A stretch of 64,000 nt of DNA from Cornus controversa. Lineage: Eukaryota; Streptophyta; Magnoliopsida; Cornales; Cornaceae. Of the stretch, positions 3,491 through 43,692 are shown one piece after another. The notes below the pieces were generated by a model. The model was given only the letters and a program-made list of their open reading frames with translations. It did not search any database and was not told where the DNA came from. The position numbers were made by a program, and so were the translations under genes. Positions within the stretch are counted from its first letter, which is position 1. Every line of letters begins with the position of its first letter. The stretch is from positions 62,755,146 to 62,819,145 of the forward strand of contig CM048852.1 in assembly GCA_026545225.1 (NCBI GenBank), in the 5' to 3' direction.

Positions 3491-4103
3491 TTTTCATTAT
3501 ACTTTCTTTTTCTTTTTCTTTTTCTTTTTTGACTTGAAAGTCCTGAACAAATAAGAATCATATGGGTTCAAAGAGTTTGGGAGTCAGCTAAAAGTCATTT
3601 GAAATTCTTTAATTTTCTTTTATGCATTCGGCATTTTACATTGCCGGCAAACTTTGTTTTTTATCCTTTAGTTATTAATTGATTTATGAGGACACCTTAG
3701 AGCAAAACTGGCAAAAGAGAGTGAAAACTTATAGTGAATATATGGCTGATGTGGGTCACTTGTTAAAGGTTAAACTGAACAAACAAGCAATAGCCAAAAA
3801 TACAAGCTTGCAATTGATTGGTCATATTAGAATCAATTTCCATATAGAGCAACTGAGCAAGTCCCTTTAATTCTATCTCCACAGGAGCTAGAAGAAATAA
3901 CCAAAACTAGCACAATTCCAGGTCAGTCTCACAACACAAACAAAAATGGGGCAGGCATTGAATCAACCCATTGTCGTTGCCCTCTCCACATCAGTCTTCT
4001 ACACAAGTTAACTTATAATTAACAACAAACAAACAGGGCATTGAACCAACTCATTCTCATGGCCCTCACAAGACACCACACACACACACACAGCCCACAA
4101 AAG
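3491..4103. other. Intergenic, 3' side of the glutaredoxin-like gene
   Basis: A pyrimidine-rich tract (repeats of tttttc) lies just left of this stretch at 3503-3531. The rest is unremarkable. At 3952-4137 a short motif (gcattgaatcaacccattctc) recurs imperfectly three times. The 3' UTR of the downstream gene should lie here. Confidence 0.4.
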
Positions 4104-5291
4104 TTAACAACAGATGGGGCATTGAATCAACCCATTCTCATTGCACTCACCACACCTCACTGTCTTCTTTCCATCCTCACCCAAAACCCTACAGCTCCCA
4201 TTGCAGTCCATACACAGCACAAACCGGACACAGGCACATCCTTCGCAGCCTCTGGCGAGTGCCCTCGGAATGCCATGGAACATAATTCCCAATTTACCCT
4301 CCTCCTCCAACCTCACCACTTCATCAGCTCCCCCTATCAGCCTTCCCTTCACAAACACAAGGGGCACTTTCACCTCTTTTGTCCCCATTATTCCCCTCAG
4401 TTCCTCCCTAAACCCCAAGTCCATTGACACGTCGCGCTCAAACATTTGAATGTTGTGAGATCCAATGATCGATCGCGCACTGTTGCATTCCTCGAAGGTT
4501 TTCCTAATTCCCCGCAATGTGGTGGTGTAAATCACGACTGCGTTTTCACCGCCAGGCGGGCATTTTTTCTCCAAAGATTGGAGGAGAATGGAGGACTCAA
4601 AGGAATAATCTCGGGAATTTCTGGCTTTTTGAGTAATGGGTGTGGCCGAAACCATTTTCTTGATCTGTTCTTCCTCTTCAGACATTTCTTTCTCCAAGGA
4701 TGCAAGAAACTCTGGATCAAACAGGGGACCCGAAGTACTACTCCGCGGTGAAAGTGAAACCCCAGAATTAGTATCAATAGGAGACCCCTTCACCGATATC
4801 TTCAAGTTTAGTACTGCCTTGCGTGAGTTCTCCCGCAAATTACACGCCTTCAAAATCCTTTTTGGGCTATAGTCGCCAATGACTCGTCCCTTGTTCTCTT
4901 TTCCTCCAAATCTCTTCATCTTCCTCGGGGAACCACCCATCTGGTTCAAGAACTTCAATGGGCTTCTCGTGTCCATATCTGCAAACCCATGAAGAAAAAG
5001 TCTCGATTTGGGGCTTTTCTTTGCCTGAACAGGAACGGGCACTATTCCCTCTTCGAGATCTTCCATGAGCTCCCAGGCATTGATGATGACCTCTGCTTCT
5101 TCGCGATGCGGTGATCTCTTCTTTTCCATCACACATTCTTTTCTGGATTGTTGTTCTTGTTTGTCAAGTTGGAGGACTCCGTAAGTGCTTGAAGTGAGAG
5201 AAACCACATGGTTTGTACTGTAGTCTCCATTGCCAAAGATAATCTCTTGCTTGACATCTTTCCTGTAGAGTTTGGATGACACACAGCCCAT
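4104..5291 (-). CDS. Glutaredoxin-like protein with C-terminal Cys-rich zinc-finger-like tail
   Basis: Single exon, 395 residues. The first ATG in frame is at 5291 (MGCVSSK), a classic N-myristoylation start (Gly2, Ser/Cys nearby). The upstream extension of the open frame has no ATG. The N-terminal half is Ser/Lys-rich and low in fold. A glutaredoxin-like domain spans about residues 249-345 (NAVVIYTTTLRGIRKTFEEC, then VKVPLVFVKGRLIGGADEV). It lacks the CxxC active site at the usual place, as is typical of this plant class. The tail (about 349-395) has repeated Cys pairs (CEGC, CMDC, CGEC, CPIC) that look metal-binding. I recognise the family of At5g39865/At5g03870-type glutaredoxin family proteins. 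Role inferred: membrane-associated, probably not a classical oxidoreductase. It reads as intact. Confidence 0.92.
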   Translation of the reverse strand: MGCVSSKLYRKDVKQEIIFGNGDYSTNHVVSLTSSTYGVLQLDKQEQQSRKECVMEKKRSPHREEAEVIINAWELMEDLEEGIVPVPVQAKKSPKSRLFLHGFADMDTRSPLKFLNQMGGSPRKMKRFGGKENKGRVIGDYSPKRILKACNLRENSRKAVLNLKISVKGSPIDTNSGVSLSPRSSTSGPLFDPEFLASLEKEMSEEEEQIKKMVSATPITQKARNSRDYSFESSILLQSLEKKCPPGGENAVVIYTTTLRGIRKTFEECNSARSIIGSHNIQMFERDVSMDLGFREELRGIMGTKEVKVPLVFVKGRLIGGADEVVRLEEEGKLGIMFHGIPRALARGCEGCACVRFVLCMDCNGSCRVLGEDGKKTVRCGECNENGLIQCPICC

Positions 5292-6026
5292 TGAAGAGTT
5301 CCTTATCAACTTTTCACTCCGTTGGCGTTATCTGTTTTTTTTTTTCCGAATTTGAAGAGAGGGAAGTGCATGCGATCGAGAGTGGGAAGGCAGATATTTT
5401 TTGAATTCATAACGGTTACATATCCTAAACGGCCCAACGGTCGGAAAATTCGAATAGACTTGTTAGTGGTAGTAATTTTCTAAGAGCCGAGTGTACCGTT
5501 ATTAGTTGACACCTCTCGTAAACCGTTTTCTACTGTTTCTCTTATACCCTTAGGATAATACTTCAGGATAACGGCTATGATACGCTGCCCGACAAATTTG
5601 TAATTTTTTTTTTTTTTTTTTGTCTTAAAAGACAAGTCAAATTATAATAAAAAAAAATTTATAAGTTAAAAAGATGAAATTCAGATTGTAATAAAAAAAT
5701 ATTTATTTTAAAAGACTCGAACAATAAATTAATAGTCTAAATAGATTGATGTTTACGTTATAAACTAAAAAATTGCTATATTGTCTAAATGATAGAATTA
5801 ACGTCTTATATTTTACATAATTTCTTTAAATACATTTATTGTATTCTTGAAGAATAAAAGTTTATTTTTATGTATAATATTATATTTTTATTTTTTGTCG
5901 TAAAGTATTCAATTTTTTTTGATATTTGTCATATCGTTGTGCCAATCAAAAGAGAATTTGGAATTAGGATTGAATTATAATTAAAATAGAATTCTATTTG
6001 CATCTTTGAAATAAACTGTAGAAATA
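5292..6026. other. Upstream region of the glutaredoxin-like gene
   Basis: The first about 110 bases are leader-like and mixed in composition. The rest is very AT-rich with a long T run at 5600-5620. No TATA box could be assigned with confidence and no gene is seen. Confidence 0.4.
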
Positions 6027-6608
6027 AGGGCCTGTTTGCTAACCATTTATGTTTAATGTTTATTGTTTATAAAAACAAATTTTTAGAATAAACATGTTTG
6101 ATAATTTTTGTTTTGTTTATAAATTGTCTAAACGTTTTTAAAATAACACTGTTCATAAGCCTTCAAATCCTAAATACCAAAATGATATTTATTGTTTATG
6201 TTTATTATAAAAAAAACTTTTTTTTTCTTTTTTATCTAAAATGGTGATTATATTATTTTAATTAAAAATTGAAACTAAAAGTGAGAAAATGAAAAGAAAA
6301 AAAATTATAAAAGACTATTATTTAATACAACGATCAAAGTATTAGAATTATCAAGTGTGGAGAATTAAAGAGCATCAATTGCCTTAAGAAAAAAATATTG
6401 GATACAATATGAATAATTACTAATATACTTGATAATAAGAAATAGTTACTTAGGGGCACCCATGCTAAAAAAAAAAAAAATTAAAATAAGTCAAATATTT
6501 TTTCGTTATCAAACATCACTCATGTTTATGGATAAACAAAATTGTAACATAAACACTGTTTATATAAATACTTAAACACTAAACATAAACAGTTATCAAA
6601 CGGGCCCT
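6027..6608. mobile_element. hAT-like MITE, 582 bp
   Basis: Inverted ends AGGGCCTGTTTGCTAAC (left) and AGGGCCCGTTTGATAAC (right, minus strand) continue into matching TTTATGTTTAxTGTTTA tracts for about 45 bases. These are ends common in plant hAT MITEs. I could not find an intact 8-bp target duplication, so it is not young. The interior is AT-rich and non-coding. Confidence 0.65.
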
Positions 6609-6736
6609 AAATTTTGTACAATTTTAGGAGTAGTTATTGACTACCCCGATAAATAGGCTGCTTCAACAGAACAATAATTATGAAATTTGACTAGGTAGAG
6701 TGCGTTGTCATGCATGCATATTTTGCCAAATCAAAG

Positions 6737-13300: not shown

Positions 13301-16300
13301 TGGATTACTCCACTCTACAGTCTAGACTATGGTCCCGTGGTTTTTTTCGTTGGGGTTTTCCACATGATTTTGGCGTGTTCTTTCCTTTACTTGCTTTAAT
13401 TTATTATTTGATTGGATTGTTATGTAATAGATTCGCTTAAGTTTTAATTGAACCTATAATTTAATCAGTCACGAAAATAAGCAAGTAAATCTATTCACCC
13501 CCTTCTTGGTCAATAAGGAATCATTAGATCATACATTATCAACTATCCACTTCTGCAGCACACAACTCTCAAAAAGAAGTCATTCCAATTTTTGTAGTAT
13601 ATATATTCAATTTGAGTGGAACAAAAACTTGTGTAGGTCCAGATTGTTTTAAGACCTGTTATATTTATTTTGGATCATTCACAAGTAGATGCTTTATGTT
13701 TCCAGATAGGACTTGAGATGTATAGGTAATATCCTCTTCCTTTGCAATCAATCAATATTCAAGTAGGAAACTTATCTGCCTTTGCTTTCTTCCCCTGCCA
13801 ATAGGCACCTACACTAGAATTTCTAAGCCCTGAGTTCCATACTGAAGTTGTGAACTCTTCTGAAATCATTGGCTAGAATAAACAATGTGACTTCATGCAC
13901 AAGGTAACAGAGAAACTAGAAATTGTTTCTATGCGTGCATTCTACATATATGAATTTTACTGATAAATGAGAGTTACTTATCTTGGTCGGTATTATTAGT
14001 CTAATATGTTCCAAGCATGCAAGAAAAGAATTACTTTTTAAAAAATATATATAGTTGAGTTCATTCTGATTCTCTATTTTTGGAATTCTCTTTGTTAACA
14101 GTGTTGACAATTCAGAGAACAGAAGATAAGGAATATTTTCGAACCATGTAGGGAAACTGTTGTTTTCCACCCATCTGTGCAACCTTGGGACGGAAATTTG
14201 GACCATTTCTTGGGCAAGGATAATAAAGGATGTCAAGATCCAACACACTGACAATTTCCCTTACCTGTAAATTTTCAAAATGCCAGTCAGGACAGTAATG
14301 GATGCATAGCATGTAAAACTCAGTCATGTGTTACGATAGAGTAATCAAATGGTAACTACGAAAATTTTTAAGATGGATCTGAGGCAGTGGCGGAACCAGT
14401 AATGGGCTATAGCCCAGGTCCAAAAAAAAAAAATTACTACTACTGTTCCCAGCCCACCATATCTCTTTCTTGTTTGATTTTCTTCCATTTCACTCTTAAG
14501 TTGATACTTTGTTATTTATTTTCCCTTCCCTCATCTTTTATGAACATGCCTTCATGTTAAGAGCTTTAATTACTTGCCCCAAAATACAATCACTTCAACA
14601 CACCTGACTATAACCTCAAGCTAGGCATAGATGCCAAAACCTAATACTCATATGGATCCATGAATTCCCACAAAATCATAGCCTGCATGGTCCAGAAGAT
14701 TAACACATTTATGTTAATCTTAATTACTGCTCTCAGCCTCTCACACAAATCATTCTCACAAGTTGCAATGCATTAGTTACTTCATCCAATCAAAGTGTAA
14801 GCAGTGACAAGTTAGATATAAACCAAACTATACATTAGATACATCCGTCCATATCCCATAATATCCATATCCCAAACTATTCATACATATATATATCGGC
14901 GGCAAAAAAAAAAAATCCTGAAAAGGTGGAAAGTTGGTCGGATTGTCGGACCAGATCCGTTTTTCTCGGGACACAGGTATATATGTGTGTATGAATATAT
15001 GCAGAGGTTCTTTGCTATGTTTTTCTCTTGTTTCGACAAAACCTCGACAATCTTCTCTCAAACGACGATCAGCTTACACCGTCTGATTAACGATCACTAC
15101 CCATAGCACCCTTAATCTTCTCTCATAACCATTCATCTCCTCTGACACAGAAATGAGAGAGAAGTAGTACGTTGTCATCAGGACAATTTCTAACAGATCT
15201 TATCAAAGATGACTAGATTTAGTTCTTGTGATGCTTGCAAATTCATGAGGAAGAAGTGTGAGTGGAATTGTGAATTTGGACCCTACTTTAGTCATGAAGA
15301 CGGTGTAGACTATCTGGTCTGGAAGCCAAAGCTCTTTCCTCCATGAATTTGTTTGGTTTTCAGACAGACAACGGACAGTGGACTCATCCATATGACAATG
15401 GTAATCATCAGTCAGTTCCATTTGGTTATATTTCGGGTTTGTGAGACAGATATATGTATGTGGGTGAAATTTGAGTTTAAACTGGGTGTTCCGAAATTTT
15501 CTTTCCAATGAAATCCGTTGCTTAATAAACTCAACCATGCTTAATAAAAGGCAACTCAACCATGCTTAATAAAATTCGATCCCCCGAAAAGATCTAATAC
15601 CTAAGCTCTGATATCAATGTCACGCTCCCAAATTTCAAGACATGAAAAATCCTCTTAATTTTCTTACTTTTAGCCCTCCCCACTTTGCAATCCTGGCTCC
15701 GCCCCTGATCTGAGGTCCATCATCATAACAGACCTTGGACACTATTTCATACAAGTGTCCAAGATGTTCGACAGGACAGAAGAACGGTCCTTCTCTCAAA
15801 TGGAGTATAGTCCAAAACCAGTCTGAAATCAGAATCCTTACAGCTGGAAGTCCAAAATTTTAAAACAGTAAAGTCAAGTATGTGGTATATTGGTTCCACT
15901 GGGAGTTGGATTTAGGACATTTACATTCTCACAATAAAATGCATTAGAAAATTCAAACATATAGGAGTACTTCAAAATATAAATGCAAATCCTACATGTA
16001 ATATAAAAATGGATACCCTTTAAGGTTGATGTTACCTTCCGACAAAATGGGCAACTGAAGTTTCCGCATGTTCCATGATAATCCACATTGGAAGAAAGCA
16101 ACACATTCATTCAGTCTTAAATTCATCACAGTGCCGTGTGAAAAAATTGCAGGAAAACAAGAAAATAAAAGAACAGAGAGTAATTGTATAAACTTAGAAC
16201 CATTGACATAAACTAATGCATACTTATTCAATACAGAAGAAAGTGATATTGAATATTAAGTACCTTTCAAACTCATAAATCTCTATAGGCTTCTCTGGGC

Positions 16301-26652: not shown

Positions 26653-29264
26653 TGATTCGTTGGTAAGTATATCAATTAAATTACCACACTTCGCAATAAA
26701 ACGAATTCCTTGCAGAATAGGGTCATCGAAAAGGGTGTCGAACCTCTGGGACTGTGGTATGACTGAGTTGGATATACGGAATTAATTATAATTAAATTTA
26801 AAAGAAAAGAATTTTGATTTAGAAACTAAAGAGTGTAAAAATATGAGATGAATCTAGGGTTATTGACTTCACCACTAACTTCACAATCAATGGTCAATTG
26901 AACTAACTATGGGGAATTATACCATGCATAAGTGGTGTCAGTGGCTACAAGCTCACCTCCATCCATCAAAAAGATAACATATGATTAAGTCTAAGTCATG
27001 GACTATCTTAGATTGACATGGGTCATCTGCCTAACTACTCTACTCTAGGGTGTGGTATAGTCTATCTTCTCTAGGCATAATCCATCAAAACTTTTAATGA
27101 TATATTCAATGAAAACTATTGTGTAATAATAACTCTCATAATCATAGAAAATAAGAGAGATTGAGTTCAATAACAATAATCAAGTATCTAAGATAAGATA
27201 AGAAATCATTGAAACTGAATATATAAGACTTCTATTACTCAATTCTATAAGAAGAATCCTCTAAATTACACAATCTATGCATGAATAAAAAAATCTCCAA
27301 TAATTAGAACAATCAAACCATTGATGCTTAGTTAGGCTACATCAAAACCCTAATGGATGAACTAGCCGCTCATGGTAGAAGAAGAAGCTTCAACTGTAGA
27401 GCAAGAAAATGTCATCTTTATGAAATACGCCCAAGACTTCGTTCTCCAATAGTTCTTCATTTCAAAGCTCTGCAAATTCTGTCCAAAAGTGTCTTTAAAA
27501 CCTCCCCTTAAACAGTCCTAATTCACCACTTTTAAACCTCCAAGAAAATACATAAAGTCCTAATCCAATTAGGACATAATTAGGGTTTCCCGCAACACTA
27601 AACAGGTGAATTTTTCTACTGACGTTAAGCCCAAATTTGACCCACTAGAAGTCCGATTCACGGAATTTTCGTGAAATACAAAAGTGTGCAAAATCGAATT
27701 TCAATTAACAAATTTGAAAATTAAGTCGAATTAACACTCGAAAATATGACTTTCGGGCCACTTTCTAAAACGGGATTAAAACTGTATTATGCGCAGAATT
27801 AGGCTTTAGGCCCGTAATCTTTTTAAGCAGATATAATTCTCTTGGACCACTTCCTTGGACAGATTTGAGTTAAAATATGGAGTTAAATGGATCCATTTGA
27901 TATAGGCTTCATCTAACCATCTTGAATGTCATCTTTAAAAGCCCAAAATCATGGTTTTAACTTAAATAATCATTAAGGTCTTAAAAATATAAAAAACACT
28001 AAAACGAAATAAAATCACAAATAAACTATCACTAAGAGAATAAAATATACAAATTAAGAGGCTAGAATGCGCAACATTCAACGTCGATCACACCCCATAC
28101 TTACATATTGCTAGTCCCTTAGCAATAGAATAACATAAAACTAAAACAAAGGAAGCTACCTAAACACTAACTAAACTACCCCAACTCCATTTTCGTGAGA
28201 GAAACGATTGCATTTAGCATATGCAACAAGCCTTTAAACCCCTAGCTTCTCCCTAGTGGACGAGTTATAATCTCGTGAGGGTTTCTAGAAATGTTACCCA
28301 CAAGCATTCAAAATTCTATTTCATCATTAATCAAGAAGAAGATTACAATATATAGTTACGGACTTGCATTCAAGAATAATTCTAAAATTTCAAATTTCAT
28401 AATTCAAAGTAATGGTCCCCATGCATAATTCACATCAACACATCTCAAAGCAACCAACTCCAGCTCCATCGTGAAAAGTGAACTTGCAATCATCTTATGT
28501 CCCATAACCCAGCTCCGAAAATATTAAGTCACATACCATTTCAACTCACTAGCTCCCCTTATTGAACTCATACTTCCAAACATGAATACATGACTTTTTC
28601 ATTTTTTTTCCTTTCATTGCTTTTTTTTTTTCATTGCATTATTGGTTGTGCAATGTCTTGGTCTATTAAGCTTTCTGAAAGATCGGTGTAGTAAGCTTCA
28701 GTCAGTGACTTCCAAACCATATGGCTTTAGGGCACTAGGTATTAAGACACCCCGAAGAACCTAATAACTCGAATCAATTAGGCTACAAACCAAGATAACC
28801 AATGCTCATCTTTTCTCACCCCTTCACTTTTGACGCGAACACTCCGTGTTTTCCGAGGCATAAAGGTTCGGTTACTCATGAAAAGGATCAAATTGATTTG
28901 TTATTCATCACGTACATATTCTTTTTCTTTTTTTTCTTTTTTTTGTTGAAGTCAAGTAAAACACATCATCAGTACTCATTTTCAAGAGATACTAATTAAT
29001 ATCAAGCATATGAAACTCAACAACTCAGAGCCAAAGTTTATACCCCCCAAGATTATGCTAGTGTGTATGTGCATTTGAGGAAACTAAAACCAATCACCCC
29101 AAGGCATGTTAGTGCGAACAATGATTAAAACAACTAAATTAAAACCACAGTTTCTCAAAATTCAAAATATATTAAAAAATCGCAAGTACCTACATAAAGT
29201 ATTAATCCCTTGAATAGTGTAAAAACATCCTATCTAAAGGAGATTGCTATCTTTAGAGTAGATA
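26653..29264 (-). mobile_element. Gypsy (Athila/Tat-like) 3' LTR and 3' non-coding interior, minus orientation
   Basis: LTR at 26653-28090: on the minus strand it starts TGATCGACGTTGAATGTTG and its end region has ggttcgacacccttttcgatgac. It is homologous to the plus-oriented LTRs at 32048, 34346 and 37556. Directly upstream (28091 on) is a purine tract agtatggggtg, as expected before a 3' LTR, and then about 1.1 kb of non-coding interior. No gag or pol of this copy is seen. A broken fossil. Confidence 0.7.
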
Positions 29265-31040
29265 ACTAGAAAGCGCATGTTAATTAAAGATAGTTCATGC
29301 TTAGCTTTGATTATATATTTTCTTCTTGACGGTTGAAAGTAAGCTTATAGCCATTGAAACTTAACTTAAGAATGATATAATTTCTCATAATTAGTTTAAT
29401 TGACCATTGAGTGTGAAGTTAATGGTTAAGTCAAAAACCTAGATTTATCTCATCTTATCTTCACTTACACATTTTCTTACTTCTAGTTTACTTATTTTTA
29501 TGTAATTAATTAGGAATAAAAATCAGCAATCTTTTTATTTTAATTTAATTAGAATTAATCCTACGAATTCAATACAAACGTAGTAAACAGTCTCTTTGGT
29601 TTGACACCCTCACTTTGACCCTATCCTACTAGGATTCGTGCTATTGCGAGTGGTAATTTTAATTGACATAATTAATCACGATCAATTTTTGGCGCCATTG
29701 TCGGGGACTGTTTTTATTATGATTATTTGGATTTTAAAAAGTAGTTCTATTGGATTTCTAGTTTAGAAAATTTTATATTTTGCTACTAATTTATTTTATT
29801 TTATTTTTGTTTTCTTTTTAGGTACTTCAGTCATCATATGCTCGATCGCCGTTCTTTTTCTGATCCACTGATACCTTACGATCTCGAGCTTGAATGTACT
29901 CTTAGATAACATAAGAGTGTTCCTAGTGACCCTATTGTGCAAGAGGAAGAGAACATTCACATCATGGGTGACGAACAAGATAATATTGATGTGGTGCCGG
30001 ATGCTGTTGTGGGGCACGCTTACTCAGAGATTATTATGTGCCAGAGACATACAATTCGCTAGATTATTTTTAGTTGCCTAATATCATAGCACAGAGCTAT
30101 GATATCAAGTCCAGTATCATTCAGATGTTGCCATCTTATTTTGGGATAACTCAAGAGGATCCGTATAAGCACTTGGATAATTTCATAGAAGTTTGCTCAA
30201 CAATCAAAATTCATAATTTTTCAGAAGATACTTTCAGGATACAACTCTTTCCATTCTTTTTAAAGAACAAGGCCAAGTATTGGTTTAATTCTCTACTACC
30301 GGGTTGTATCACTACATGGACTCAAACAAAATATGAGTTCTTGAAGAAGTATTTTCTGATATAGAAGACCAATCAATTCAGATGAGCTATCACTGGTTTC
30401 TCTCAGACTGAAAGGGAACAATTTTATGAGACATGGGAGAGATTCAAAGACCTTCTTAGGAAGTGTCCCCATCATCAAGTTCCAAAGTGGCAACTAATGC
30501 AATGTTTCCATAAAGGGCTAACTGAAGGTAACAGACAAATGGTGGATGCATCATGTGGGGGCACTTTTATGTTAAAAAGTGAAGTTGAAGTATGGACTTT
30601 GTTCGAGAACCTCAATGACAATTCTTTATAGCATATGTCTTCATCTCGTTTGAGCAGACCATCTAATTCTAATACAAGGAAGGATGATGGTATTGTTGAG
30701 ATTGGTTCTGCAGATGCTATGTCTACTAATGTGGATATTTTGGCACAAAAAGTGGCACAAATTATGGCGGCTGGTCAAGCTCCTACTCCATCTTCGATTC
30801 TCCTACATTGGGGCCATGTGACTTTTGTTTTAGTCCTATGCACCATGTGAATAATTGTCCTTTAATTGAGCAGTTTATTGATCTTCCACAAAAGCAAGTG
30901 CAGACGATATTCTCTAGACTGGTGAACAATTCATATTCTAATACTTATAATTCTGGATGGAATAATCACACAAATTTCTCATGGAAAGCTTAAGGAATAA
31001 GGAATCAAGCTACACAAGTTCATGGGATAGCAAGTCATCC
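29265..31040 (+). mobile_element. Gypsy (Athila/Tat-like) fossil: LTR end, primer-binding site, gag piece
   Basis: Truncated LTR end at about 29265-29690, then a primer-binding site ttggcgccattgtcggggac at 29692-29711 (tRNA-Asp type used by Athila). A gag region at about 29830-31000 has family blocks such as EDPYKHLDNFIEVC, then FKDLLRKCPHHQVPKWQ and a knuckle-like CDFCFSPMHHVNNCP. Broken in several places; old. Confidence 0.75.
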
Positions 31041-32047: not shown

Positions 32048-34345
32048 TTGATAGGCGTAGAATGTTATGCATTCTAATATCTTAATTTGCATATTTTCTT
32101 CTCTTAGTAGTAGATTATTTGTGATTTTACTATGTTTTAGTATTTTTCTTATTTTCAGGTCCTTAATAATAATTTCACTTAAATCATGATTTTTGGGCTT
32201 TCAAATATGACATTCAAGAAAATTAGAGGAAACCTACATCAATGGGACCGATTCAATTCAATATTTTAACTCAAAACAACTCAAGGAAAAGGCCTAAGAG
32301 AAGTACAACTGTTTAAGGAGATTGCGGGCTGAAATCCAATTCTGCGTGAAATACAGTTTTAATCTCGTTTTGGTAATCTGTTCGTAACTCTTATTTTCAA
32401 CTGTCAAAATGGCCCAAATCTTTTAAAGGCTGAATGAAATTCAATTCTGAATCTTTTTGCACTTCACAAAAATTTCATGAATTGAACTTCTAAGGCGTCA
32501 AATGTTGGGCCGAAGTTCAGTAGGAAAATCTACCTGATTGGGGGCTGCGGGAAAACCCTAAATGTCTCCTAATTAGGTTATGACACTTCATGTTTCTCTT
32601 GTCAAATAAAAGTGACAAATTGGGGATGTTTTGAGGACCTTTTGTTGAAGTTTTGAAGATCTTTTGGAGTGAAGAAATATTGGAGAACAAGGCGTAGCAC
32701 TACTTCCATGGAGATTACGTCTTCTTCCTCAACTGTTGAGATGTTTTCTTCTCCCATGAGCGGCTAGTTCTTCCACTTAGGTTTTAATGTAACCCTAACT
32801 AAGCATGAATGGTTTGATTGTCCTAATTATTGGAGATTTTTATATTCATGCATAGATTGTGTAATTTAGAGGATTCTATTATTGAAGAATTGAGCATTAA
32901 AGTTTATATTCAGTTTCAATGATTTCTTATATTGTCTTAGATACTTAGTTGTGATCGAACTCAATCCCTCTTATTTTCTATGATTATTAGAGTGATTATT
33001 ATAGAATGATATTAATTGAATATGTGATTAAAGTTTTAATGGATTATGCCTAAAGAATATAGACCATGCTACACCTTAGAATAGAGTAGATAGGTATATA
33101 GTGCATGCTAATTGAAGATAGTCTATGACTTATCTTTAATTATATGTTATCCCCTTGACAGTTGAAAGTGAGCTTGTAGCTACTGAAACTACTCATGCAT
33201 GATATAATTCCCCATGATTAGTTTAATTGACTATTGATTGTGATGTCAGTGGTAACGTCGAAAACCCTAGTTTTATCTAATCTCATATTCACTTTACAAA
33301 TTTTCTTGCTTTCATTTAGTTAATTTTTAGAATTAGAAATAAAAATTTGCAATCTCTTCTCTTTAATTTAATTAGAATTAATCGTAAGAATTCAATACAA
33401 ATGTAACAACAATCTCTGTGGTTTGACACCATCACTTTGACCATATCATACTAGGATTCATGCTATTGCGAGTGGTAATTTTAATTGGTATTAATCAATC
33501 ACGATCAATTTTTAGCACCGTTGCCTAGAACTGTTTTATTTCGATTCTTTGGATTTTAAAAATTAGTTATAATTAGATTTTTAGTTTAGGAATATTTATA
33601 TTTTGCTATTAATTTAATTTATTTTATTTTATTCTTTTTAGGTACTCCAATCACCATATGGTCGGTCATTGTTCGTTGTCTAATCCATTGATATCTTTCG
33701 ATTCCAAGCTTGAACGTACTCTTAGGCAATAGAAGAATGTTCCTATTGACCCTATTGTGAAAGAGGAAGAGAACATTGACATCATGGCTGATGAACGTGA
33801 TAATGTTAAAATTGTGTTTGATATTGTTGTAGAAAAGGCGTGTTTACTCAGAGATTACTATGTCCCAGAGACATACAATTCTCCAGCTAATTTTCAACTA
33901 CCTAATGTCATAACACAGAACTATGAGATCAAGTTCAGCATCATTCAGATGTTGCCATTCTATTTTGAGCTATCGCATAAGGATCCGTACAAGCACTTGG
34001 ATGATTTTATAGAAGTATGCTCAACAACAAAAATTCATAACTTCTCTAAAGATATTTTCATAATGCGACTCTTTCCATTCTCTCTAAAGGACAATGTCGA
34101 GTATTGGTTTAATTATCTACTGGCAGGCTCTATCAGTACATAGACTCAAATGCAACATAAGTTCCTAAAGAAATATTTTTCGATAGGGAAGAGCAATCAA
34201 TTCAGACGTGTTATCACTGGTTTCTCTCAATCTAAGGGGCAACAAGTTTATGAGACATGTGAGAGATTCAAAGACCTTCTGAGGAAGTGTCCTCATCACC
34301 AAGTTCCAAAGTGGCAGCTAGTGCAATGTTTCCGTGAGGGGCTGA
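32048..34345 (+). mobile_element. Gypsy (Athila/Tat-like) fossil: whole LTR plus 5' part of gag
   Basis: LTR about 32048-33508 (TGATAGGCGTAGAATG to ATCACGATCA), a decayed primer-binding site at about 33510-33530, leader, then a gag region from about 33660. The gag piece stops abruptly where the next LTR begins at 34346. Broken in a few places. Confidence 0.75.
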
Positions 34346-35305
34346 TGATAGGAGTTGAATGTTACGCATTCTAGCATTTTAACTTGCATATTTTATTCTC
34401 TTAGTGATAGATTATTTATGATTTTAATCTATTTTTGTGTTTTATGTATTTTCAGGGCTTTAATGATTATTTCAGTTAAAACCATAATTTTTGGGCTTTT
34501 AAAGATGACATTCAAGAGGGTTATATGAAGCCTATATCAAGTGGATCAATTCAACTCCATATTTCAACTCAAAACAACCCAAGAAAGTGACCCAAGAGAA
34601 TTATAATTGCTTAAGGAGATTTCGGGCTGAAGTCTAATTCTGCGTGTAATACAGTTTTAATCCCGTTTTGAAAAATAGCCCGTAACTCTTATTTTCGAGC
34701 GATAAAATGGTTCAGTTGAACTAAATTTGATTCTGGTCATTTTTGTATTTCTCGTAAATTTCGTGAATCGGACTTTTGGTGCGTCAAACCTTGGGCCGAA
34801 AGTTAGCAGAAAAGCCCACCTGATTAGGACTTGTGGGAAAACCCTAATTGACTCCTAATTAGGTGAGGACACTTCATATTCTCCTGGCCATTAAAAGTAA
34901 CAAATTGGGGGTTGTATTGAGAAGTTTTGGACAACAACTTGCAAAGATTTGGAGTGGAGAACCATTGGAGAACAAGGTCTTGTGCGTATTCCATGAAGAT
35001 GACGCATTTTTCTTCAACAGTTGAAGCAGTCTCTTCTACCATGAGCGGCTAGTTCATCCACTAGGGTTTTGATGTAGCCCTAACTAAGCATCAATGGTTT
35101 AATTGTTCTAATTATTAGAAATTTTTATATTCATGCATAGACTGTGTAATTTAGAGGATTCTTCTTATAGAATTAAGCAATAAAAGTCTTATAAATTCAA
35201 TTTCAATGATTTCTTATCTTAGATACTTAAGTATTGTTAATGAACTCAATCTCTCTTATTTTCTGTGATCATGAGAGTGATAATTATACAATGGTAATTA
35301 GTGAA
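34346..35305 (+). mobile_element. Gypsy LTR, right part missing
   Basis: Starts TGATAGGAGTTGAATGTTACG like its relatives and follows them for about 950 bp. It then joins directly to leader sequence of the next gag copy without the LTR end or primer-binding site. Confidence 0.65.
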
Positions 35306-37555
35306 TATTTTAGTGTAGGAAATTTTTATATTTTGTTTTTAATTTTATTTTTGTTTTCTTTTCAGGTACTTTAGTCACCATATGCATGGTCGTCATTCTG
35401 TAGCTAATCCTTTGATATCTCTTGACCCTGAGTTTGAGTGTACTCTTAGACAGCAGAGCAGGAAAAAATTATTGATGTCACGGCTGATGTGCGTAATAAT
35501 AATGATGGCCACGACAATGTTGTGCCTAATGCTGTGGTGGAAGGGGCGAGATTGCTCAGAGACTAATACGTCCCAGAGACATATACTTCGTCAACTGGAT
35601 TCCAACTGCCTAATGCCACTGCTCAAAACTACGAGATCAAGTCCAACATTATTTAGATGCTTCCATCATATTTTAGGTTGACTCATGAGGACCCTTACAA
35701 GCATCTGGATGAGTTCACTGAAGTGTGCTCAACTACCAAAATTCATAACTTCTCTAAATATGCTTTCAGAATGCGACTCTTCCCATTTTCCTTAAAGGAC
35801 ATGGCCAAGTATTGGTTTAATTTTCTACTGCGGGCTCTATCACGACATTAACTCAAATGCAACATAAGTTATTGAATAAATATTTTTTGATAGGGAAAAT
35901 CAATCAATTTAGATGAGTTATCACTAGTTTCTCTTAGCATGAAGGATAACAATTCTATGAGACATGGGAAAGGTTTAAGGACCTTCTTTGAAAGTGTTCG
36001 CATCATCAGGTTCCAAAGTGGCAGCTTGTGCAGAGTTTTCATGAGGAGCTGACTAAAGCCAACAAACAGACGGTTGATGCATTTTGTGGAGGTGCTTTCA
36101 TGTTGAATAGTGAAAAAGAGGCATGGACCTTGTTTGAAAATCTAAGTGACAATTCTCAACAACATGTGTCATTTACATGTTCTAGCAGACCATCCATTAC
36201 AGGTAAAACTGATAGGGTTTTCAAGGTTGGTGCTACAGATGTTATGCCAATCAACATTAACTTGATTACACAGAAGGTAGCATTGATTATGGCAGCCAAT
36301 CAAGCTCCTCCTTCTGCAGGTTCTTCATTGCTAGGCTCTTGTGACTTTTACTCTAGTCTTATGCATAATGTGAATAATTGTCCTTCAGTTGGACAATTTT
36401 TTGAACTTCAACAAGAGCAAGTCATAGCTACATTCACTGGAGTAATGAATCCTCCATGTGGCAACACTTACAATCCAACATGGAGGAATCATCCTGGTTT
36501 TTCTTATAGCAACCAAGGAGTAGCAATGCAGCCTACATAAGCCTAGGAACTATGTGTCTCAACAGCCATATCAAGCACAAGTTCCTATGCCACAAAAGAA
36601 TTCTGCCCTAAAAGACAAGATGATGGGTGCCCTAGTTAGGCTTGAGAAAATTGAGTCTAAACTTGAGAAGCTTGACTCTATTGCTGAAGTAGTTCAATCC
36701 ACTGCCCAACTGGTTCATTCTCATTTTCAGTCCATTGCCAAACTGGAATCTCAGTTTGGACAACTTGCTAATGCCTTGAGTAGAAAAGAAGAGGGAAAGC
36801 TTCAAAGTTAACCAGTTGTAAATTCTAGAGGGATACATGCTTCTTCAAGCAACCTACATCATGAGCAAGTTCAAGCCATTACCACTTTGAGAAGTGGAAA
36901 AATAATTGATAACAAGATGGGAGAGAAGAAGAAAGAAGTGATCACAAGTCCAAGTGCTAAAAATTCATATGAGCCCAAGTCTTCCTTCTCACAACATTTT
37001 CTAGAAGCATCCAAATTAGGGAAGTAAGGGGACACGCTGCATGACATGATGGAAGTGTTTCGACAAGTAAAGATCAATCTACCACTCCTGGATGCCATCA
37101 AATAGATTTCTCCTTATGCAAAATTTTTGAAATACTTGTGCACTCAGAAAATGAATTCCAAAAGTCATGTGCCAAAGAAGGTAATGCTGCCATAACAAGT
37201 GAGTTTCATAATTCAGCATTGCACTCCTCCCAAGTACAAAGATCTTGGCGCCCTAACTATCTCATGCATCATTGGGGAGCACCATGTGGATAAAGCTCTT
37301 CTTGATTTGGGTGCAAGTGTAAACTTACTGCCCTATTAAGTCTACTTACAGTTAGGCTTGGGAGAATTGAAGCCTACTTCGGTAGTGTTACAAGTTACAG
37401 ACAAATCAACTAAGCAACCACGGGAGATTGTAGAAGATGTGCTCATCAAAGTGGACAAGTTCTACTTTCCAGTTGATTTCATTGTGCTAGACACTAAGCC
37501 AGTCCACAATCCAAGGAGCCACATTCCAGTCATCCTTGGTTGACCTTTCTTAGTG
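35306..37555 (+). mobile_element. Gypsy (Athila/Tat-like) fossil: gag and protease region
   Basis: Gag region 35382-36811 and a downstream protease region at about 37190-37545, with the family pattern of a retropepsin (LLDLGASVNLLP, then VILG near the end). This is the longest gag stretch in the window. It carries several breaks and ends against an LTR at 37556. Confidence 0.75.
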
Positions 37556-38950
37556 ATTGGCGTTGAATGTTACGCATTCTAGTCTCTTAATTTGCATATT
37601 TTATTCTCTTAGTGATAGGTTATATGTGATTTTACTCTGTTTTTGCATTTTCTATCTTTTTCAGGGCCTTAATGATTATTTCAAATAAAATCATGATTTT
37701 GGGCTTTTAAAGATGATATTCAAGAAGGTTATATGAAGCCTACATCTAATGGGTCCATTCAACTCCATATTTCAACTCAAATTAGCCCAAGGAAGAGGTT
37801 CAAGAGAATTACAACTGCTTAAGAAGGTTATGGGCCTGAAGCCCAATTTTGCATTTAATCCACTTTTAATCCCATTTTGGAAAGTTGACCTAAAGTCTTA
37901 TTTTCGAGCATCAATTCGACTTAATTCTCGCATAGGTTGAACGAAATTCGATTCTGGACACTTTTGTATTTCACGTAAATTTCGTGAATCGGACTTTTAC
38001 TGGGTCAAAACTTGGGCCGAATGTCAGTAGAAAAATATACCTATTTTGAGCTGCGGGAAAACCCTAATTTTCTCCTAATTGGATTAGGACTTTATCTCCT
38101 AATTGGATTAGGACTTTATGTATTCTCTTGGGGTATAAAGAGGTGAATTGGAGGCTGTTTTGAGGAAAAAAGAAGGGGAGGCCAGGGCAGAGAAGACAGA
38201 GACAATCCGTATTTTATTTACTTATTATGTCTTTTATTTATTTGTTATCTTCTTCTTCTACCATGTGTAACTAAACTCCTCAACTAGGATTGAGGAGGAA
38301 ACCTCCATTGATAAAGTGAAGTTCTTTTGTTCATTAATTGATTCTCATGTGTGTGATTTAATTGCTTATGATTTTTGCTTCTTGTGATTAATTATTTTAT
38401 AATTCTTTCACCATCTATATCATGTATACGTGGTAGTTAGAAAGTATTATAATTAATCTAAGCTTGAGTTTGTATTTCTTAAAAGTGATCATCTTTAATC
38501 TTATGTGTTTCATTAAATTGGATACATAGGATGCTTAGAATTTTACACAAGTGAAGCGAAGGAAAATCTACCTTTTAATATATTTTTTATAGTGCTTTAT
38601 TGTTAAATCTTGAGTAAGCAATAAATTGATTTCTTGATTGCTACTCTAACTTTGGGAATTAATAAATGAATATTAGAAACTTCATGGATTTAATGGTGGT
38701 GGAATCCAAAACCTTAGTTATTTTCTTTATTTGATTTCAATAGTGTTATTTTATTTTCATGTTAGTTTAATTTCTCTCAAATCAACTAAACTTGTGTTTA
38801 AACTAGATTAGTTTTAAATTAATTTGAATTTGTATTAGTTTTTCTTCTCAAAGCATTCCCTTGGGTTCGACCTCGTTCTTGTCGAACTATACTTTAATAG
38901 ATTTGTACACTTGCGAGTTATTTAACAATTTTAAAACAACATCACTTAAT
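37556..38950 (+). mobile_element. Gypsy LTR inserted in the pol region of another copy (probable solo LTR)
   Basis: Starts TGGCGTTGAATGTTACGCATTC after a short lead. The left half matches the other LTRs of this nest; the right half (from about 38160) is a different version, ending near cacttgcgagttatttaac. Protease-type sequence lies on the left and pol sequence of the same family on the right, so the LTR interrupts an older copy. Confidence 0.65.
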
Positions 38951-39530
38951 TATTGCTGATGCTTGCATAAATTGTAGGTCGGGGATCATGGACATCTCTT
39001 TTGGCAATATGAAGGTCAAGTTGAATATTTTCAATGATATCCAACACCCCTCCAGACCAGAGTGAAGTTTTTTGCATGGATGTTATTGAAGACTGTGTGG
39101 AGGAATTTGCTTCATATTCTCTAGCTCATGACCCCTTGGAGGCATGCATGTCCTTTTGTGACTCTGAGTCATTTAATATTGAGGAGTCCATTGAAGAGGT
39201 AAACTTTATGCTTGAGGTTGTAGCCATTCAGAATATTCCATCATGGAGAATTCCAGTCGAGCCACTGCCTCTCTTTTCTAGCACTCCTCTAGTACCTTCA
39301 TTAGAGTCCCCTCCACAATTAGAGTTGAAGTCTTTGCCCGCCAAGTTAAAATATGTGTTTTTGGGGGCCAATAAAACCCTTCTAGTTATCATTACCTTTG
39401 ATTTGACAGATACTCAAGAAGCAAGCTCAGTAGAGGTCTTGTACCATCATAAAGCAATTAGGTGGAGTGTGGCTGATCTCAAGGGTATATTATATGATGA
39501 ATGTGTAGATTTTTTATATTAAATGCATGA
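38951..39530 (+). mobile_element. Gypsy pol fragment (between protease and reverse transcriptase)
   Basis: The open frame at 39034-39522 contains LELKSLPAKLKYVFLGANKT and WSVADLKGI, the linker that precedes reverse transcriptase in Athila/Tat-type pol. The reverse transcriptase itself is absent; the next element starts here. Fossil. Confidence 0.75.
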
Positions 39531-42500
39531 TAATGTGAACATGTTGTGGCGTATTGTAAAATGTATGCATATATGAAATGTATGCCTAGATTTGGACATA
39601 TATGGGGCTATATGGAGGATGTGTAGAGGAAATGCATGCTAGACGTAATTGTAGCATGAATGTGCATTGTGAAAGCATGAAAAAATATATGATATATGTT
39701 ATATGTGCTTGATATGCAAATGTAAGTGATTATCGAAGGATTGTCCAAGTGATTCTTACATAGGGTTCGGAGTTGTCCAACCATGTCACGAAAGTGATAT
39801 GATTATCCACTAGGGTATAACCGTCGAAGTTGCCCCATCATACCAAAGCCAAGGCCTAGAATTCAGAATTGTCCATAAAACTTGTGACCGTTGGAGTTGT
39901 CCACTCACATTTGGCAAAATCAATATATTTTCGGGTTGTATGATTCTTCTGAGTTGTCCAAGTCATACGGGTGTCATCGGAGATGTCCAAGGCACATGAT
40001 CGTCGGAGTTGAGCAATCATGTCTGTGTATCGGATTATGACCAAAAAGATGTAAATATCTTATTGCTTATGTGTTTAAACTGTTAAGCATGACATGTGGA
40101 TTAAATGCATACAATTTGACTTGCATTTGTGATGACTTGACATAAAAGCATTGAATATGCCATGTAGTGCAGTGACATACATATCATATAGGTCGGTGTC
40201 GAGTCGATGCTGAGGTGGGTTAGGGCATTCCTACTGAGCTCGTTGATTTGATCACCCCTCTTCCCTAAACCTTTTTACAGATAAGGCACCAATGACGAAC
40301 GGGGCTTGAGTGGCCAAGTGGATCTTTTAGTAGTATTTTTGAGTTATTTTGAGAGTTACATGTATTGTTATCCATGCCGGCTTGTGGTATGTCGACACAT
40401 TTGAAATGATATGTAATTTTTGGTAAAAAAATTTATATATAAATATATATGGAGTTGTTTAAGTGCTCATTTGACTTGATGCTTGAAAACTTGAGAATGG
40501 TAAAAATGTATGCTTTTGGACTATATTTATGAAATGTATGGATTTTTGTATCTATGAGGCATGAATGTATGGATTTTATGAGTTTTGTTTATGATTAGAA
40601 TGGTGGATGAATGTATGGGACTAGAGAATGCATTTAGACTTAAATAATACAGGTTTTGGGCATTTTGGGAACTTTCGGTCACCTAGCCCTCTACAGCAGC
40701 TGACTAAAAGTGTGAGATCCTGAATAATTATAATTAAGGAACCTATTTCAGACGACTGTAGGAGGGATTCAGGTCGCTGAAAGCACCTTTTCGGCTAACT
40801 GAAACAACTCTCCAATTGACTGACAGAATTGATAAATTGGAGGTCAGTTGAACCCAGGTTTCAGCCAACCGGAGGGTAGTGTCAACCAACCGATACTGGG
40901 CTAGGATGGAATTTCATGAACTTTGGGATATGAATGAATATGTTTGGAGGCATGGACTGATTCAGGGCCCATTGGGATGAATGGTGATGAGTATACGCTT
41001 ATGTAATTGTGTATGTGTGATGATCTATATTTTTGGTTTATTTTAAAATATATGTGTATATATTTTTTATTTACATAAATAGATTTAAGCTATAAATATA
41101 GATATGTATATATATACATGTGTGTGTTTACATATATTTACCAAACTTAGGGGGTGAAATAAATGACCTAGCAATAACTATGGAAAGTGGGGTAATGGAA
41201 GTAATAAAGGATTTTAATAGGTATATGACTTATTGACTTCTCAACAAGCGAAACGGATACTCTTATATTATATGAGAGAAATTATTTGGTGATTAAATGT
41301 AGAAGTAATGGTGACTTTTTAGTGGCTCATGTCAGTTAAGGGAAGTACTATATAAGGAAAAGACAATGTAGATTCGTGAAGGGAGTTGATAGTATATTGG
41401 AGGAAAAAGTTGTTACAAGGCGTCATTTTGGCAGATACAAAAAGAATAAATTTTTTTTATGACTAAGGTAGGGGAATTTACTATGGATCTATATATGCCC
41501 GTGGATAGAAGAAAATCAGGAATTTTTATGTTAAAGAAATATGTGTGTGTGTATATATATATATATATTTCAAATTTTGATTTATTTCATAAAATATTAG
41601 CTTGTAAGATTACATAACTCTTCTATGTAGATTGACATGACTTCACTAGTCAAATGGTATTGTGTTTGTTTAGTTGTTATTTAGTTTATTTTTATGTTTT
41701 CTTTCTCTGCTCCAATTTTAGTTTAGTATTATATTGTTAGAATTTTATATAGTAAGAATTAAATATGTTCACATGATATCTTTCAGTCAACTAATCAACT
41801 TATAGCAATTGATGTTGGCTTGCTCATGCTTACGTGTGTGTGTGTGTGTGTGTATTGTTAGTATTATGTTATTTGGTATTATATGGTAATATATTATATA
41901 TATATATGGTGTCAATAAAGACACAACCTTGTTGGTACTTTTTATTTTTATTTTTAAGAAAAAAAAAACTTGGTGTTCTATTAACTCTTACAAAATTTTT
42001 TTATTTATTAAAATAATTGTTTTATCATTATTTATTGTAATCAATTGCAATGTTTAAGCTGGAGATTAAAATTGATTATATTAATCAAGTTAATGCTTTG
42101 AATTATTTTTGATGTGATTCCTAGTGAAATAAAATGTTAATTTTAAAATAGTACAAAAGGTTATACCATTTGGGGGTAAAGGAAGAGAACTTGTGTTTTA
42201 TGAAAATGTTTGTATTCAGCCCATGAATGGGTTTTGGTGGTGTATGCTCGTATATGTATAACCGGTTGAAAATAGGAAGGGTTGTAATCCATTCGGTTGA
42301 AAAATCGAGAACTGTTCGAAACTATAGTTGGGTGTCGCCGTGAGAATGACTAGAAATCCGCGGTGTATGTGTGCGGTACACATGTTGGAATTTTTAATTT
42401 TGTCAAAAATGTATATGATTGAATTGGTGATGTTATTTATTCTTATTTTAATTGCTTGCAGTTAATTTAGTAAAACCACTGATAAATTGCTTTGTTTCCT

Positions 42501-43099: not shown

Positions 43100-43692
43100 G
43101 CGTGACATAATCCATTGAACTTTTTACTTAGTCTTTTTTTTCATAAACCCCTTCTCTAGGTGTTCCGAGAATGAATGTGACCAATGTGTTTCAAACGGAT
43201 GAGCGGGTGAAAAAAAAATCAAAGAAATGAAAAAAATAAATATATAAAAAGAGTTGTAAGAAAAGGGAAAAAAATGTTTGTTGATGAAATTCTAAGAAAC
43301 TATGCAAAAGTGATATAGAAAGTGCTTGATTGACAAAAGTTCAAAAGTGAAAGTTAAATGTAATATGTTCCAAGTAAGTTGGTTCTTCCCAATCATTCTC
43401 GGATATACTTTCATTATCTCCTTTTACTTAACGTTACATCCTAATTAAAGCCCTATTTGATCTTAAGTGTAGTATGGTTTGGATATGGACATGAAAAAGC
43501 TATAATGTTGTGTGGTGTAGATCTTCAATGTTTGGTGTTCCTTTTATGAGACTATATGTTCTTTCTTGTATTAGCATTTTTCATATAACTCATATGTGAG
43601 ATATTTTGTTCTTACTTTACATTTTCCCGTTCATATATATATAATTGAGAGTATTATACCCATTTCGGTGTGATTTTATTTGTTGAATGTAA
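43100..43692 (+). mobile_element. Gypsy (Athila/Tat-like) 3' non-coding interior, piece 1
   Basis: The stretch with gtgaaaaaaaaatcaaagaaatg, many A runs and ccaagtaagttggttctt resembles the non-coding region that precedes the 3' LTR in Athila/Tat elements. It is cut at 43693 by a minus-oriented LTR; a related piece continues at 46311. Confidence 0.4.

Follow-up and report, generated by a model that had tools for sequence, protein, structure and literature searches.

In the 64,000-bp stretch of Cornus controversa DNA analyzed here (contig CM048852.1, positions 62,755,146–62,819,145; hereafter the window), a fragment of a LOB-domain (LBD) gene lies within a 1323-bp element at 14385–15707, which is a non-autonomous, gene-carrying hAT transposon (Pack-hAT) inserted in an intron of a predicted GST_N_3 gene. 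The account that we hold to be very probable as a whole is that this mosaic element took its LBD copy from a degenerate LBD family (family B), that the copy underwent internal deletion followed by neutral decay, and that family B shares its ancestry with a second set of mobile LBD copies (family A). In family A, a LOB gene is present, and open in eight of nine copies, in linkage with a young, high-copy Ty3/gypsy long terminal repeat (LTR) retrotransposon family, a finding that deserves more attention than the hAT fragment.

The window element has the short terminal inverted repeats and 8-bp target site duplication (TSD) of a hAT transposon, and it holds part of a host gene between its DNA-transposon ends, as Pack-TYPE elements do; its longest frame is 120 residues. 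The left (CAGTGGCGGAACCAG; 14385–14399, plus strand) and right (CAGGGGCGGAGCCAG, read on the minus strand; 15693–15707) inverted repeats are 15 bp long and agree at 13 of 15 bases, and the TSD copies ATCTGAGG at 14377–14384 and 15708–15715 are identical at all eight positions, bearing out the clean ends and perfect duplication reported in the first-pass annotation. The intronic location proposed there is likewise supported by splice sites on the minus strand. The predicted intron (14265–16035) has its donor GT from 16035 and its acceptor AG ending at 14265, with exon edges read directly as CPFCRK followed by gt at 16036 and ag followed by VREIVSVLDLDILYYP at 14264, and most of it consists of the window element. 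The two exons that follow, when joined, match GST_N_3 (E = 1.7e-8), and the LBD cargo lies antisense to this host gene.

The 45-residue frame at 15209–15346 (plus strand; MTRFSSCDACKFMRKKCEWNCEFGPYFSHEDGVDYLVWKPKLFPP, then a stop), on which the first-pass annotation centered, is indeed a LOB-domain piece, 15209–15343 matching PF03195 with E = 2.6e-7 and 31.6 bits (cut-off 24.2). The LOB domain comprises a C block, a GAS block, and a zipper-like part; the frame covers profile positions 1 to 31 of 99 only, corresponding to the zinc motif of the C block, and does not amount to a complete LOB domain. Its ATG is the LBD start codon, and its last ten residues (LVWKPKLFPP) are the LBD tail read in the wrong frame. 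The first-pass claim that the rest of the gene is missing did not hold, as both the 5′ flank of the captured gene (14881–15208, plus strand, from about the (AT)n-CGGCGGC point on) and its C-terminal coding tail with the start of the 3′ untranslated region (15314–15461, plus strand; up to 88% identity to other loci) align to LBD copies; the tail frame translates as GLEAKALSSMNLFGFQTDNGQWTHPYDNGNHQSVPFGYISGL and a stop (15298–15444, plus strand). A search of the same genome with the window element returned 59 matches among the best 40 of 518 candidates, many of them in two blocks, one extending to element position ∼925 and the other starting at 930, with hundreds of target bases between. These two-block matches, together with LBD copies elsewhere that retain the middle, indicate that the element retains the two ends of an LBD gene but lacks its middle, a stretch that measures 467 to 695 bp in nine related copies. 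The copies elsewhere have a frame that spans the LOB domain and continues into an extended C-terminal region, and those examined are disrupted by stops, frameshifts, or the loss of an end. At the junction of N part and tail (15311–15314, plus strand), the shared sequence is at most about 2 bases by eye, and the junction is identical in two sister elements, L009 (contig C2, 18539478; 86%) and L010 (C2, 1288009; 92%). Splicing was ruled out as the origin of the missing middle because the N-side junction, inspected by eye, has no GT. A gene piece is thus carried by a hAT element, as first annotated, the actual cargo being a deletion derivative of a whole LBD gene. Beyond this cargo, the element combines sequences of several origins (hAT ends, a foreign left segment, both LBD gene ends, and LTR-element scrap), since its left part matches a locus without a hAT end and its 3′ part holds a piece of LTR end on the minus strand. 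The left internal segment (14459–14846, plus strand) is 86% similar to a stretch at C6:46729967, where no hAT ends were found, and 15551–15635 (minus strand) is the remnant of an LTR end with a tRNA primer-binding-site (PBS)-like stretch from another gypsy element, the PBS-like match lying at 15618 on the minus strand and being similar to L018 and L024.

The window cargo belongs to family B, from which the LBD copy would have been taken up as DNA. Such uptake by hAT elements probably happened more than once, as other family-B copies are carried by L015 and by the rearranged L071 and L072. L015 (C1:75442304–75444134) is a 1831-bp hAT element with similar ends, a TSD agreeing at 7 of 8 bases, and a near full-length, stop-bearing LBD-B copy; in a DNA tree of 18 rows, it grouped with L025 and L024 (support 99/99), and the cargo of the window, L009, and L010 formed a group of its own (100/100). 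L071 and L072 contain a third, rearranged LBD-B arrangement joined to the same hAT right end, and at C4:48612768 a hAT right end stands beside a similar LBD match. hAT ends were found in 8 of 29 sequences (window, L009, L010, L015, L025, L028, L071, and L072), each with an LBD-B copy or piece. This co-occurrence, and the presence of LBD-B in at least three architectures, would also be expected if LBD were an old native gene of the hAT family rather than a captured one, with family B spreading mainly as hAT passengers. However, the association is biased because the tested stretches were mostly picked for LBD similarity, and most family-B loci examined show no hAT end. A 33-bp right-end pattern had 122 genome matches at two or fewer mismatches (control, 0), but among the 100 of these listed, five lay within 5 kb of any of 54 LBD places (typed from the own-genome search listings). 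We consider a native hAT gene unlikely and favor capture from family B.

Comparison with the sister elements suggests that the window LBD piece is most likely decaying Pack-hAT cargo, as the sisters share the deletion, L009 lacks one of the cysteines and is interrupted by a stop, and the substitutions appear unconstrained. Because all three elements share the deletion, it would have arisen before the hAT element was copied, and the cargo would have decayed neutrally since capture. The retention of all four cysteines, stressed in the first-pass annotation, is confirmed for the window copy and L010; as a sign of function it fails, given that L009 carries Cys2 to Ser plus a stop and that the window and L010 frames differ by 7 nonsynonymous changes and 1 synonymous change over 35 codons. 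The corresponding counts are 10 and 0 for window versus L009 and 6 and 2 for L009 versus L010, so that the substitution pattern, which had been offered as a check, reveals no constraint on the 45-residue frame among these three copies. Divergence of the window element from L010 and L009, respectively, is 9.8 and 15.2% in the LBD 5′ flank, 7.4 and 10.4% in the 45-residue frame, and 3.7 and 5.8% in the left arm; relative to L009, the values are 12.6% in the tail and 6.0% in the 3′ part, which L010 has lost. The LBD flank (14881–15208) has diverged two to three times as much as the left arm (14385–14880), part of which may reflect alignment of the AT repeat.

The cargo could alternatively act through RNA, host-gene transcription across the intron yielding antisense LBD sequence and small RNAs against LBD copies. 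Its antisense orientation to the host gene would suit such a role, but the element is intronic and identity to non-sister LBD copies reaches at most 80 to 82% in the N part and 88% in the tail, values so low that few long perfect stretches are expected; we regard this as improbable. Still less credible, to the point of being nearly negligible, is that the frame is kept as a small interfering peptide whose zinc-motif fragment would bind DNA or LBD partners and thereby inhibit the parent proteins, for despite the four cysteines in two copies and the native start codon, it meets with the damaged L009 frame, nonsynonymous-to-synonymous counts of 7:1 and 10:0, the absence of the LOB domain beyond profile position 31, five upstream ATGs within 14881–15208, and the decay of the family-B copies examined as well. 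Neutral decay of captured cargo accounts better for the same data.

Family A emerged from a genome search with PF03195, which gave 151 matches among the best 150 of 252 candidates. Sixty of the 151 listed matches score 102.0 to 108.2 bits and are spread over all ten large contigs, six with stops (C7:46656082, or L067, is a different gene and is excluded from this group). Three of the 60 are spaced 12,592 and 12,593 bp apart on C6, in a stretch where a Ty3/gypsy element is repeated in tandem. The element encodes gag, reverse transcriptase (RT), RNase H, and integrase in gypsy order in an 1866-residue frame (pieces searched apart), although the match to the rve core is weak (E = 0.00058). The LOB gene stands between pol and the 3′ LTR, and its 193-residue frame, counted from the ATG, matches PF03195 positions 1 to 97 of 99 (E = 2.3e-30), a complete LOB domain. 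The element further contains a polypurine tract (AAGTTTGGGGGTG), a 1.57-kb LTR, and a PBS (TGGCGCCGTTGCCGGGG). Paired LTRs, 99.2 to 100% identical, were present in all five separate copies tested (in one of these, the 3′ LTR was fetched in part and the polypurine tract lay outside the fetched sequence), and with the LTR ending in CACAACA, a 5-bp TSD is exact in four copies and agrees at 4 of 5 bases in the fifth. Paired LTRs, PBS, polypurine tract, TSD, and the gag-pol domain order together identify family A as Ty3/gypsy; it may be Athila-like, to judge from the PBS TGGCGCCGTTGCCGGGG, extra open reading frames (ORFs), and no chromodomain among the domain matches. Eight of nine LOB frames from the copies designated A1 are full length, and the ninth (L043) has a stop at codon 153. 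An antisense frame of 196 residues (L031:2125–2712, minus strand) has weak Pfam matches, all below cut-offs; the motif FDLNVLPEVP near its start resembles the DLNxxP repression motif.

The linkage of LOB gene and retrotransposon extends across the genome. When the LOB gene plus its 3′ flank was searched against the genome at the DNA level, all of the best 40 matches (867 candidates) were 96 to 100% identical, and 39 of these fall in the 60-member score group, which to that extent represents the same sequence at 96 to 100%. A search with an RT piece was evaluated on the best 131 rows of 15,117 candidates. Among the 62 rows at 91% or higher, 52 have a LOB match on the same strand 3 to 9 kb downstream, 51 of them at 4737 to 4844 bp and one at 3457 bp. 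The LOB list used here comprised 90 of the listed PF03195 matches, excluding presumed cellular genes, short exon matches, and known family-B loci; as this is an incomplete, hand-typed set, the ten RT rows without a LOB match may be gaps in the list. In the next RT family (84–87%), none of 69 rows had a LOB match 3 to 9 kb downstream, although a diverged or lost LOB gene may escape the listing. Within the window, other gypsy pieces akin to family A lie at 28093–28307, 30020–31026, 33658–39540, and 43210–43639; they show 47 to 70% protein identity to family A gag-pol, plus likeness to non-coding internal parts. When the window was searched with the family A element, the sole match to the LOB gene was the hAT cargo.

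The relationship of the two families was examined in a midpoint-rooted protein tree of 37 of 49 sequences, those with at least 75 aligned residues (the window, L009–L013, L016, L018, L026, L027, L063, and L066 are omitted), in which 14 cellular rows were a selection from the PF03195 matches listed rather than all LBD genes. Family A (10 rows) and family B (13 rows, including the hAT copy L015) each formed one group and joined with support of 100/97, the tree thereby showing family B as the sister group of family A among the rows tested. The nearest cellular row to the two was L062 (97/99), which has a predicted GT donor immediately behind LQQQ; families A and B continue through this point with no intron. 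This difference fits descent of both families from a processed, intronless LBD copy that a retroelement may have moved before hAT elements acquired it, although we are less sure of this step. That ancestral copy would have derived from an LBD16/18/29/30-like gene.

Several observations weigh against our overall account of the cargo. Neither L009 nor L010 has an intact right end, which leaves the window copy as the sole one of the three elements with two hAT ends and a TSD. The search of the genome for a parent family and sister cargo, also put forward in the first-pass annotation, recovered matches to the LBD family and the shared cargo of L009 and L010, so that neither outcome named there as refuting came about, but not the exact donor; the best non-sister local matches stop at the 80 to 82% (N part) and 88% (tail) given above, and L013, the best of the tree comparison, is 79% identical over the aligned N region. 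Carriage of family B by a retroelement is less sure, being suggested by a polypurine-like motif (GAGGACAAAATTCTTTTAAGTTGGGGAG) after the LBD-B tail at seven loci (L012, L014, L019–L022, and L026), ∼120 to 130 bp past the stop where measured. No LTR pair was recognized around family-B copies, and a common stretch of ∼11 kb gives L019–L022 the appearance of segmental duplicates.

Several other structures at family-B loci were considered. No terminal repeats were recognized round the ∼11-kb unit of L019–L022, which was taken as a segmental duplication. L025 contains a 611-bp direct repeat (3684–4272 and 6024–6620; 86.9%) on either side of an LBD-B copy and a truncated hAT right end, without clear LTR ends. 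A region in L012, termed X, was rejected as the 5′ LTR of an LBD element because it resembles the LTR of a different gypsy element that lies within an LBD-B copy. At C9:40144338–40156452 (L012 and L013), an apparently single LBD-B copy is split by an ∼11-kb nested gypsy element, whose LTR seems to span from just past the pol end to GGCGTGACA. A common mobile 5′ boundary at the family-B (AT)n was rejected since L016, L017, L024, and L028 share sequence beyond it. Linking family-B loci to the family A gag-pol or antisense ORF was also rejected, as the 22 stretches L009–L030 contain no match to the antisense ORF and gag-pol matches at L014, L023, and L024 are only 26 to 56% identical. L017:6675–6888 is 84 to 85% like the stretch before the family A 3′ LTR at the DNA level and lies ∼2 kb from the LBD piece of that locus, on the opposite strand. 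A 1.1-Mb stretch of C4 (7475353 to 8575248) holds ten short matches, five per strand, that are confined to the LBD-B tail, as if duplicated locally.

The family A gene shows a weak signal of selection, which does not prove kept function and partly speaks against it. Nine A1 copies contain 11 synonymous and 20 nonsynonymous polymorphisms. Whole-gene ratios of nonsynonymous to synonymous substitution rates (dN/dS) are 0.52 to 1.02 for A1 versus L068 or L069 and 1.04 for L068 versus L069; for the LOB part, they are 0.45 to 1.02 for A1 versus L069 and 0.96 to 4.25 for A1 versus L068, the latter with few synonymous changes and none in one pair. L068 has lost Cys1. It is possible, if doubtful, that the gypsy family fixed a LOB regulator as an accessory gene and that the hAT cargo would be second-hand debris of that lineage; our confidence was lowered slightly because the LOB part alone is unconstrained between the A1 copies and L068. 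The LBD16/18/29/30 group, to which this developmental regulator would be related, promotes cell division and organ founding. Were the accessory-gene proposal true, the family A LOB gene would be the plant counterpart of a transduced cellular oncogene, whose nuclear protein would render cells or chromatin more favorable to the element.

The Pack-hAT described in PMC8903248 is similarly a non-autonomous hAT element with an 8-bp TSD that carries host-gene pieces and is shown inserted in a gene. In contrast, the source family in Cornus is repetitive, looks retro-derived, and was seemingly taken up repeatedly by the same hAT family. Plant LTR elements with extra ORFs, as covered in PMC7264820, are comparable to family A in the sense and antisense ORFs between pol and 3′ LTR, whereas in family A this place is taken by a recognizable regulator gene of host type, at 96 to 100% identity in at least 40 copies. 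Fixation of a host-type functional domain in gypsy elements has a parallel in orchid Ty3/gypsy elements with an m6A demethylase domain, reported together with a survey of 121 angiosperm genomes in which Aegilops tauschii elements carried the transcription-factor DNA-binding domain B3 and those of Citrus carried YgdH of LONELY GUY (PMC9289625); LOB is not among the domains named in its survey section, and no word starting with "lob" occurs in its main text. Nor do LOB or LBD occur in the available parts of PMC11963269, PMC6317226, and PMC11728184, and titles and abstract openings of the mostly non-subscription literature on LOB domains, captured genes, and extra ORFs did not describe any LTR element as carrying a LOB-domain gene, although three of the listed papers (PMC12581244, PMC7001039, and PMC4309534) mention "LOB domain" along with an LTR or Athila term. 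The family A protein aligns with the Ramosa2 LOB structure 5LY0 over residues 4 to 105 (E = 3.5e-24), four cysteines included. It differs from LBD/ASL factors in that its gene lies within an LTR element and its frame continues across the place where the nearest cellular gene tested has a GT donor. Elsewhere in the window, 4107–5327 (minus strand) holds an open 407-residue frame with a glutaredoxin domain (PF00462, 1.3e-9).

Taken by itself, the window hAT fragment is one more Pack-hAT, with an anatomy fuller than first described. Mobile copies can raise the apparent number of LBD genes in genomes of this kind, as illustrated by the 60 of 151 listed LOB matches that are near-identical in score. 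Family A bears on the role of extra ORFs in plant gypsy elements and offers a direct, testable case of a retrotransposon keeping a host-type transcription-factor gene across many copies.
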